From a virus, in the IMG/VR virus record IMGVR_UViG_3300046009_011857, positions 1-46,259 of that record: a stretch of 46,259 nt of DNA. One strand, written 5' to 3'. Shown here one piece after another: positions 5,451-22,098 of this stretch. The translations under genes and the position numbers were made by a program. Numbering within the stretch: position 1 is the stretch's first letter; every line of letters starts with the position of its first letter. The notes beneath the pieces were generated by a model. It made no database searches. It was not told where the DNA came from and saw only the letters and a list, made by a program, of their open reading frames with translations.

Positions 5451-5708
5451 GATCCGTATAAAAGAAAGGATTGCGGGTCTAGAAATGTTTGTCGAAAGGG
5501 GTATAAATGATTTTGCGGATGGCGGATATTCGTATATACGCGCGCCTTGGGTAAAGATCGTGGTCTTGCTGTGAATACGGGGAATTCCGCGCCATATATG
5601 CGCCGCGTCGATGGACCGCTATTGCCGTGGGCCCGTTGCGCCGTCGCTACGCTATCGCTCCGCTATCGTTTATTTTCATTTTCTTTTTTTTGTCATAATG
5701 CAAAAATA
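5451..5708. other. Gene-free, comparatively GC-rich interval
   Basis: About 260 bases without a credible gene. The middle (about 5530-5670) is strikingly richer in G and C than the rest of the window. It contains CGTATATACG (5531-5540), a GCGCGCC run and a short repeat around CGCTATCG (two copies near 5650-5668). Frames through it are short and have no recognisable protein character. It may hold an RNA or a binding-site cluster; nothing specific is identified. Confidence 0.5.
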
Positions 5709-5730
5709 ATGGCGAGTGGGGGCTCGCCAT
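5709..5730 (-). terminator. Rho-independent terminator
   Basis: On the minus strand, ATGGCGAG and CTCGCCAT pair around a short C-rich loop and are followed by TATTTTTG. It closes the transcript of the gene ending at 5740. Confidence 0.75.
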
Positions 5731-5739
5731 ATCCTTTAT

Positions 5740-11035: not shown

Positions 11036-11192
11036 CTATCTCATCACTAAGATCACCATCATACTCGTGTAATGCTTTAATCAGTTCGTCTAACTTTTCG
11101 TTTATCAACGTTGTTGTTTTGTTTATCGCTTTGATTTTATCTTCAATTCGCTTCAACTGATTGTTTAGCTTTTGTACATTTGTTTCGTCCAT
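11031..11192 (-). CDS. Very small coiled-coil protein
   Basis: 53 aa, ATG at 11190-11192 and stop TAA at 11031-11033. Begins MDETNVQKLNNQLKRIEDK and reads as one continuous amphipathic helix (IEDKIKAINKTTTLINEKL), then an acidic end. Its stop overlaps the -33 element of the next promoter, matching the packing of neighbouring genes. That supports it as a real gene. Function unknown. Confidence 0.6.
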   Translation of the reverse strand: MDETNVQKLNNQLKRIEDKIKAINKTTTLINEKLDELIKALHEYDGDLSDEIE

Positions 11193-11207
11193 GTTATTTA
11201 TTTATTT

Positions 11208-11393
11208 TTATCTACCTTGCCAACCACCACCACTACCATAAGATATTCCACCTTCTGTTTTGTGGTTGTTAAATGTTTGTTCATCAGTTGGTTCGTTGTC
11301 CTCATCTTCCCAATCACAATGTTCTAAACAATCAGGACAAATACCTATTTCAGTAAAATTGGTGTGTGCACCACAGCATGTTGAGTAAGCCAT
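11208..11393 (-). CDS. Small zinc-ribbon-like protein
   Basis: 61 aa. STCCGAHTNFTEIGICPDC then LEHCDW gives a CC...CPxC...C pattern typical of a compact zinc ribbon, followed by an acidic stretch and a Gly-rich tail (GGISYGSGGGWQGR). Similar short 'CCGA...CPDC..HC' proteins are common in phages of Bacteroidota and Proteobacteria, without known role. Confidence 0.7.
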   Translation of the reverse strand: MAYSTCCGAHTNFTEIGICPDCLEHCDWEDEDNEPTDEQTFNNHKTEGGISYGSGGGWQGR

Positions 11394-11397
11394 ATTG

Positions 11398-11637
11398 TTA
11401 TTTGTTTATTAATGCTTTAGCCATTGACTCACTTCCAAGTTCTATCCCAGCATGAAAAACAAATAGCAAACTTATTACTGATGTTACTTCAATTTGGAAA
11501 TGGACATATTCATCTCCATTTTCATCTGTGTATTCTTTAATAATTTCTAGTTTTTCGTGATGTTGAATAGCTTTTTGAAATATTTCAAATCTACTCTTAA
11601 GAAGAACTAACGTGCCTGCAACTAAATTGTTTATCAT
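11398..11637 (-). CDS. Hypothetical protein, paralogue of 9061-9264
   Basis: 79 aa. The C-terminal module FHAGIELGSESMAKALINK is shared with the gene at 9061-9264. The N-terminal 45 residues differ. Has its own promoter cassette (11657-11687). Function unknown. Confidence 0.6.
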   Translation of the reverse strand: MINNLVAGTLVLLKSRFEIFQKAIQHHEKLEIIKEYTDENGDEYVHFQIEVTSVISLLFVFHAGIELGSESMAKALINK

Positions 11638-14060: not shown

Positions 14061-14327
14061 TTAAGAATTTGGTTCTTCAACTGCAGATGTAGAAGTTGGC
14101 TTTGTACCAACTCCTAATCCTTCATATTTCAGTAGTGCATTTGCACAGTAGTATTGTAACTTTTGAAGTGACTTCATATTAGTAATTTCTTGAATCATTT
14201 TGTTTTTATCTGATTCTTTGATTTTACTTTCATTCAAATGTGCAAGTGCAATGTTTTGAGCTGATGTTAAGTCTTTAGATGTAAAAACTGCTTCTGCAAT
14301 TTTGTCTAGTGTTGAAATAATCTTCAT
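14061..14327 (-). CDS. Hypothetical protein
   Basis: 88 aa, helical, starting MKIISTLDKIAEAVFTSKD, with a low-complexity tail of Thr/Ser/Glu. Promoter at 14347-14378. No family seen. Confidence 0.55.
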   Translation of the reverse strand: MKIISTLDKIAEAVFTSKDLTSAQNIALAHLNESKIKESDKNKMIQEITNMKSLQKLQYYCANALLKYEGLGVGTKPTSTSAVEEPNS

Positions 14328-20919: not shown

Positions 20920-20938
20920 GGAGACCTATTAGGTCTCC
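20920..20938 (-). terminator. Rho-independent terminator after the tRNA-like RNA
   Basis: Perfect stem GGAGACCT-AAT-AGGTCTCC followed on the minus strand by TTTAATTT, 9 bases after the 3' end of the tRNA-like RNA. Confidence 0.8.
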
Positions 20939-20946
20939 AACTTTAG

Positions 20947-21105
20947 CTGTAGGGGCTGGAATCGAACCAGCACGTTGCGATTCAATGTAAAACAGATAAG
21001 CCGGCTTTGTGGTCAACCCATATTTTACATCTATCTCTTATCAACACCCTCTAGACGAGAGGGCACGTCTGCCACGAGGAGCTACCTCTTTTCCGCCACC
21101 CTACA
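20947..21105 (-). ncRNA. 159-nt tRNA-like RNA with possible pseudoknots
   Basis: The ends form a perfect 7-bp acceptor (TGTAGGG with CCCTACA), preceded at the 3' side by a textbook T arm (GCTGG-TTCGATT-CCAGC). Discriminator G; CCA not encoded. A GTGGCGGAA start resembles a tRNA-Leu D arm. The interior is far too long for a tRNA. AGACG-TG-CCCTCT-CGTCT-AGAGGG (21047-21070) can form an H-type pseudoknot. GATAAG...ATGTAAAA...CTTATC...TTTTACAT (20985-21042) has the same a-b-a'-b' order. Alternatively CCCTC-TCGTCTA-GAGGG is an anticodon-like hairpin, but it lacks U33. No tag reading frame is seen. Could be a degenerate tRNA, a tmRNA-like RNA or a new RNA class. Confidence 0.6.
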
Positions 21106-21636: not shown

Positions 21637-22098
21637 TTATCTTTTCCATCTTGCATGTCTCTCTTCAACAGATAGTTGGAGTGATTCATCTATTGTATGG
21701 TCTATATTTACTTGAACACATTTAAATTCTTGCTTACGGTTCTTATAATAGTTGTTAATATATCCAATCATATTACCTGTTCCAATTGGATTAGCTGAAT
21801 GTACATAGATTTGTGGTAGTGGTATTTTTGTATTCATACTTTCCGCCACTAGAAATTTACAACAATCAAGTCCTGTTTTTTCAGTTATGTTATTATAGTC
21901 TAAGCTGTAGTTAGGCTGTACATTGCTATAATACTCTATCATAGCAGTATCACCCAAGTCGTGATCCAATGAAATTGTTTCAATATTTTCTAATCCATAA
22001 AATTGGATAGCGGCTACAAATTGATTATAGTCTCTTGAAATAATCCAGTCTTTATCCACTGGAGTTCTGATGTCATCTAGATAGATTCTTTGTTTCAT
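21637..22098 (-). CDS. Receiver-fold protein of the cyclic-phosphate-processing (cREC) type
   Basis: 153 aa. MKQRIYLDDIRTP at the start, ETISLDHDLGD (about 40-50), TGLDCCKFLV in the middle and IYVHSANPIGTGNM near 97-110. These match the REC-like 'cyclic-phosphate processing' family, whose members carry paired Asp and a HSANP motif. The family is linked by comparative genomics to RNA-end or nucleotide-cyclic-phosphate processing, often beside RNA-repair genes. Here it directly precedes the tRNA genes, suggesting tRNA-end maintenance (inference). Confidence 0.65.
   Translation of the reverse strand: MKQRIYLDDIRTPVDKDWIISRDYNQFVAAIQFYGLENIETISLDHDLGDTAMIEYYSNVQPNYSLDYNNITEKTGLDCCKFLVAESMNTKIPLPQIYVHSANPIGTGNMIGYINNYYKNRKQEFKCVQVNIDHTIDESLQLSVEERHARWKR

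Follow-up and report, generated by a model that had tools for sequence, protein, structure and literature searches.

The window analysed here, a stretch of 46,259 nucleotides (positions 1–46,259 of IMG/VR record IMGVR_UViG_3300046009_011857), is a fragment, 46 kb long, of the genome of a T4-like phage. Genes for a family-B DNA polymerase, a clamp loader and GroEL are present. The best match of the polymerase is from a Microcystis phage (36%). Because the nearest isolated relative of the GroEL protein is from a Flavobacterium phage (57% identity), the host is likely to belong to the Bacteroidota. A 159 nt tRNA-like RNA lies on the minus strand, between 21105 and 20947. It has the acceptor stem (TGTAGGG/CCCTACA), G73 and perfect T arm of the original prediction. 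The terminator proposed to follow the RNA was recovered as a terminator-like hairpin at 20938–20920; the region contains three such sites, compared with 0.7 in shuffled sequence. A separate tmRNA and two ordinary tRNAs are found 1–2 kb upstream of the RNA. The tmRNA, which had also been recognised at the outset, is complete (23278–22924). ARAGORN, and Rfam at gathering thresholds, made no call at the tRNA-like element, and an Rfam search of it down to an E value of 10 returned chance matches alone. Also nearby, at 21637–22098 on the minus strand, is a gene for a small protein with a cyclic-phosphate processing receiver domain (PF20274). This protein was found in 72 IMG/VR loci, many with tRNA arrays, and the name of its domain suggests a role in RNA-end processing.

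A scan for the neighbouring protein gave 72 IMG/VR loci, and a homologue of the RNA was present in three. Pattern scans based on the conserved core then yielded 41 distinct sequences, including that of the window. One more, in locus L076, was added by covariance model (163.8 bits). In total, the IMG/VR scans identified 42 distinct members of between 155 and 172 nt. A third, looser scan of IMG/VR found no further member. Hence, the family is saturated in this database at that sensitivity. Note that the scan pattern drew on the T loop, UGAAUC and the tip motif (ACCA..AAG), so selection partly accounts for their conservation; this does not apply to the other parts. The IMG/VR matches at L074, L087, L142 and L143, and matches with no acceptor partner, were not members according to the family model. 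BLAST searches of INPHARED (50,697 phage records) with three members produced chance fragments or nothing, and no member. Similarly, a pattern scan of 84,980 GTDB species genomes found no member; 12 alphaproteobacterial matches were rejected, since the family model confirmed none. ARAGORN and the Rfam tRNA model were also silent at the family members scanned. A full-text literature search, with subscription journals mostly outside its reach, did not uncover any account of an RNA of this kind. We conclude that the window RNA belongs to a real RNA family, undetected in every annotated collection searched, and that its carriers are a group of uncultured T4-like phages.

Comparison of the relatives shows that the RNA has a fold of cloverleaf type (Table 1). 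In an alignment of 41 sequences (A2), 98.5% of cells in the structure are paired, compared with 38–52% when partners were slid. Changes on both sides were seen in 25 of the 32 pairs, and account for 265 cells (shuffled mean, 71). The covariation score was 0.567, and did not exceed 0.109 with partners slid by 1–3 columns. The acceptor, D, anticodon and T stems occur in cloverleaf order, each covarying and 99.5–100% paired; the 3 bp D stem is paired in 41/41. As anticipated, the acceptor and T-arm pairings are kept in relatives (100% paired across the 41 sequences, with covariation). Like G18-G19, A14, A15 and A21 are invariant in A2. Retention of G18-G19, A14 and A21 implies a tRNA elbow. The variable arm is much enlarged, at approximately 75–83 nt. 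Minimum free energy folding of the whole window element did not return the cloverleaf (−53.2 kcal/mol when free versus −50.4 kcal/mol with the covarying stems enforced). Hence, we did not rely on single-sequence folding. A GGGUU/GGCUU stem in the minimum energy structure was discarded; by inspection, the UCGA, CAUG and GGCC groups do not retain it.

Table 1. Positions of the tRNA-like RNA, its parts and related elements. Numbers refer to the window, or to the locus named.
Feature	Position	Strand	Observation
Whole tRNA-like RNA	20947-21105	-	Family model R1, 160.6 bits, E 6.8e-41 (window sequence among those used to build R1); 41-sequence alignment A2
Acceptor stem, 5' strand UGUAGGG	21099-21105	-	Pairs with 20948-20954; 100% paired; two-sided changes in 6/7 pairs
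D stem, 5' strand GCG (10-12)	21094-21096	-	Pairs with 21065-21067; 100% paired; 2/3 pairs covary
D-loop extra hairpin GAGG-UAGCU-CCUC	21076-21088	-	Palindromic in most other clades
D-loop G18-G19	21072-21073	-	Invariant in A2
D stem, 3' strand CGU (23-25)	21065-21067	-	100% paired
Anticodon-type stem-loop CCCUC-UCGUCUA-GAGGG	21047-21063	-	99.5% paired; 4/5 pairs covary
V1, variable-arm base stem, 5' strand GUUG	21042-21045	-	Pairs with 20974-20977; 100% paired; 3/4 covary
V2, long variable-arm stem, 5' strand AUGUAAAA	21023-21030	-	Pairs with 20985-20992; 94.2% paired; 7/8 covary
Conserved motif of variable-arm tip GGGUUGACCAC	21009-21019	-	GGGTNGACCAC invariant in A2; ACCA..AAG in search pattern
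Self-complementary tip AAGCCGGCUU	20998-21007	-	10-nt palindrome, proposed dimer contact; palindromic core in 41/41
V2, 3' strand UUUUACAU	20985-20992	-	8-bp stem with 21023-21030
Internal-loop strand UGAAUC	20979-20984	-	Invariant, but in search pattern
V1, 3' strand CAAC	20974-20977	-	4-bp stem with 21042-21045
T arm GCUGG-UUCGAUU-CCAGC	20955-20971	-	100% paired; 3/5 pairs covary
Acceptor stem, 3' strand CCCUACA	20948-20954	-	U1-A72 in 41/41
Discriminator G73 (20947) and C74 (20946)	20946-20947	-	G73 in 41/41; C next in every listed member
Terminator-like hairpin, just 3' of RNA	20920-20938	-	From terminator search of region
GOLLD (RF02032)	L078:2233-2646; L005:789-1201; L105:8203-8609; L113:1621-2038; L110:1-351		
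AGUCAGG/CCUGACU class	L032:10769-10880, 11141-11343; L042:5216-5378, 5629-5733; L063:11125-11239, 11492-11612; L067:5469-5576; L071:4507-4618; L094:603-741, 876-1033; L104:13814-13914, 14131-14228; L120:39-153		

The tip of the variable arm carries AAGC and then the complement of AAGC (AAGCCGGCUU, GCUUGCAAGC, GCUGGCCAGC, GCCGGCCGGC, GCUCGAGC or AGCAUGCU). The tip is palindromic in all 41 sequences, with five different cores: CCGG, GGCC, UCGA, UGCA and CAUG. On a tree built without the tip columns, the core changed four times. Palindromes of at least 8 bases occur in 14 of 15 distinct tips (shuffled mean, 0.65) and in 17 of 35 distinct D-loop inserts (shuffled mean, 1.9). The sequence of the D-loop hairpin varies almost freely among members. 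Despite this, 12 of the 17 distinct hairpins with a tetraloop have a self-complementary loop (GUAC, UAUA, CUAG, AGCU or CGCG); p is approximately 2e-11 under a naive 1/16 null that ignores relatedness and base composition. Palindromic tetraloops were found in 0/18 variable arms of ordinary Ser, Leu and Tyr tRNAs from the same loci. Self-duplex energies range from −11 to −24 kcal/mol; as hairpins, the same elements reach −2.6 kcal/mol at best. In the clade of the window, the D-loop hairpin (GAGG-UAGCU-CCUC or similar) has a 5-nt loop and is not a full palindrome. Hence, for the window RNA, the tip alone supports dimerisation.

Self-complementarity of a loop is useless within one molecule but useful between two, which points to RNA homodimers or oligomers. 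The proposed contacts covary as palindromes, as a homo-oligomer predicts. For OLE and GOLLD, loop cores that switch between palindromes supported intermolecular contacts seen by cryo-EM (PMC12286853). The new RNA resembles GOLLD, OLE and ROOL in that palindromic loop cores change yet stay palindromic, read as contacts between copies. It differs in being much smaller and tRNA-shaped, and matches none of them by sequence or model. We also considered a monomeric structural RNA, in which the GUC of the anticodon-type loop docks on the GAC of the tip in the same molecule and the palindromes are small hairpins. GUC (41/41) and GAC are both invariant, and both palindromes can be drawn as hairpins of 2–4 bp with 4-nt loops. 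Such hairpins need no self-complementary loop, yet all five tip cores and most D-loop cores have one, and the ordinary variable-arm tetraloops of the same loci do not. In addition, positions 33 and 37 do not covary with the flanks of GAC. We therefore regard the monomer as doubtful, although it is a credible minority view. The GUC could pair with the GAC; since both are invariant, this contact is beyond the reach of covariation. Taken as they stand, the palindromes strongly suggest self-pairing at the variable-arm tip. The RNA probably functions as paired copies, or as larger self-assemblies, and not as an ordinary tRNA.

The best-scoring non-members with the family model were ordinary tRNA-Leu and Leu-like genes (36–41 bits, compared with 160–164 bits for members). 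Furthermore, the RNA and the tRNA-Leu of its own phages have a D-arm sequence in common (UGGUGAAA..GG.AGACAC). Because tRNA-Leu provides the nearest non-members and shares this D arm, a tRNA-Leu-type gene is strongly suggested as the ancestor. The likeness to tRNA-Leu, a class II tRNA, includes the acceptor, the D-arm sequence, the position of the variable arm, the T arm, the gene neighbourhood and C74. This last base is also present in 265 of 302 ordinary phage tRNAs from the same loci. As C74 follows G73 in every listed member, ordinary 3' maturation and CCA addition are likely. The differences are substantial. The A73 of tRNA-Leu is replaced by G73 in 41/41, the D loop carries a hairpin, the variable arm is long and its tip self-complementary, and the GUC loop lacks a fixed U33 or purine 37. 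Unlike class II tRNAs, the RNA is missed by ARAGORN and the Rfam tRNA model.

The seven-base loop of the anticodon-type arm has the form NNGUCYM. Position 33 is C, U or A, with U33 replaced by C or A in 31/41; position 37 is U or C, and never a purine, in 41/41. Position 38 is C in 31/41 and A in 10/41, including the window. Thus, the 41 sequences do not keep the U33 and purine 37 of a decoding tRNA. The determinants of tRNA-Asp are G73, G34, U35, C36 and C38 (PMC9976931). The first four are found in 41/41. Hence, the loop and discriminator resemble those of tRNA-Asp. In the long subfamily the loop (CUGUCUC) differs from that of the phages' own tRNA-Asp (CUGUCAC) at position 37 only. Bacterial tRNA-Asp strictly has G1-C72 (PMC9976931). 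In the new RNA, U1-A72 takes its place in 41/41, and G2-C71 is present in 39/41. The U1-A72 pair counts against efficient aspartylation. The class II variable arm, and the loss of U33 and A37, further separate the RNA from tRNA-Asp.

Could the RNA be an odd yet working class II tRNA, with a GUC anticodon that reads GAC and GAU and with its additions tolerated as decoration? The cloverleaf, T arm, G18-G19 and invariant GUC in a 7-nt loop would suit such a role, as would a place in tRNA arrays. However, a tRNA of this kind would have to function with U33 replaced in most members and a pyrimidine at position 37 in all. It would also be redundant with the ordinary tRNA-Asp(GUC) gene present in 10 of 11 tRNA-rich loci, and would carry approximately 85 extra nt of strictly conserved structure. 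Neither ARAGORN nor the Rfam tRNA model recognises it. We consider a decoding role improbable.

The original prediction described two possible pseudoknots, as in tmRNA. Comparison of the 41 sequences reduces each to one real stem and one chance stem. The 21047–21070 knot includes the true anticodon stem, which is conserved. The stem that rivals it (AGACG/CGTCT) is complete in 14/41 and excludes the D stem, itself complete in 41/41. In the 20985–21042 knot, the 8-bp stem is real and GATAAG/CTTATC is complete in 4/41. Hence, the pseudoknot architecture was rejected. The reported lack of a tag frame stands; by eye, none is common to the relatives. A reduced tmRNA, by which a charged, tagless tRNA-like RNA would enter stalled ribosomes, is very unlikely. 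The RNA shares with tmRNA (RF00023) tRNA-like ends, a large structured middle and, often, adjacent genes, with a complete tmRNA 0.3–0.8 kb downstream of the member in eleven contigs. In contrast to tmRNA, the new RNA has D and anticodon stems, about half the length, no shared open frame and no knots supported by relatives. The Ala-type G3-U70 pair is absent, and neither ARAGORN nor Rfam reports a tmRNA at the element.

A tRNA with an insertion had also been suggested. This is correct in so far as the D loop and variable arm are enlarged; however, the extra sequence is covarying structure and the anticodon loop is rebuilt. That the approximately 85 surplus nt are an unusual intron, whose removal would leave an ordinary tRNA with a length near 75 nt, is scarcely believable: they are far below group I intron size, are located within the D loop and the variable arm rather than the anticodon loop, and covary as stems continuous with the variable arm. 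The comparison supports the remaining proposal, that of a new class of phage RNA that mimics tRNA. We file the family as a tRNA-derived RNA, neither tRNA nor tmRNA, because it lacks the defining features of both that were tested.

Wherever tRNA or tmRNA genes were found near a member, the nearest were on the same strand. Complete tmRNAs belonging to the phages themselves are present in the window and in L071, L079, L085, L086, L091, L093, L094, L111, L114 and L120. Their tags vary (e.g. ANEYAVAA, AEELSSFTFEDAMAFVGADYAVAA). At L006:119-3684, an array of 23 tRNAs covering all 20 amino acids adjoins the new RNA. GOLLD RNA forms a cage of unknown function. At five of the loci scanned, it shares its tRNA array with the new RNA. 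A second odd class has the acceptor AGUCAGG/CCUGACU, A73, a Leu-like D arm and the T arm ACAGG, with several genes per locus. Its 20 distinct sequences are 74–203 nt long and their middles are completely different. The impression is of tRNA-like RNAs in which a constant frame surrounds a variable centre.

On balance, we lean towards a new class II tRNA-like family of T4-like phages that is of Leu-type origin, matured as a tRNA, non-decoding, self-pairing and a putative Asp-like decoy or scaffold. In this model, a tRNA-Leu-type gene would have gained an enlarged D loop and variable arm, and a rebuilt anticodon loop. The usual enzymes of tRNA maturation would release the RNA from the transcript of the tRNA array, and it would receive CCA. 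Since neither U33 nor purine 37 is retained, we infer that it does not decode normally. As the palindrome-preserving changes suggest, two molecules would pair at the tip of the variable arm, with the D-loop hairpin as a second contact in most clades. Such pairing would create a homodimer, or a chain or ring of RNAs. The least certain steps concern function. The GUC loop, G73 and usual C38 might let host AspRS bind or charge the RNA, which might then serve, during infection, as a multivalent decoy or scaffold that resembles tRNA-Asp and counters those host factors by which tRNAs are handled or attacked. Both AspRS recognition and the decoy or scaffold role are speculative. A bolder version, which we think unlikely but worth stating, is that the two palindromic contacts build a defined multimer with several aminoacylatable acceptor arms, placing Asp identity on a tRNA-Leu scaffold to divert host factors. 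A general precedent comes from phage tRNAs able to evade tRNA-cutting defences (PMC10264068), but no result of this analysis links the new RNA to a defence system.

The plant-virus tRNA-like structures are likewise viral RNAs that imitate tRNA. Whereas they terminate viral genomic RNA at its 3' end, the new RNA is a separate gene of a DNA phage, and the tRNA-like families of Rfam gave no match to it. Evidently, standard tRNA finders and Rfam miss RNAs of this kind. A tRNA body combined with signs of self-assembly is unusual. At approximately 160 nt, a size that suits in-vitro transcription, native gels and cryo-EM, the molecule would be very small for a natural RNA whose homo-oligomerisation is backed by covariation. 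It has long been asked why phages carry tRNA arrays. The new RNA is a conserved member of those arrays whose presence codon supply cannot plausibly explain, and it bears a clean evolutionary mark of RNA–RNA self-assembly. If the multimer reading is true, a multivalent, non-decoding mimic would divert the synthetases or elongation factors of the host, or its tRNA-cutting defences.
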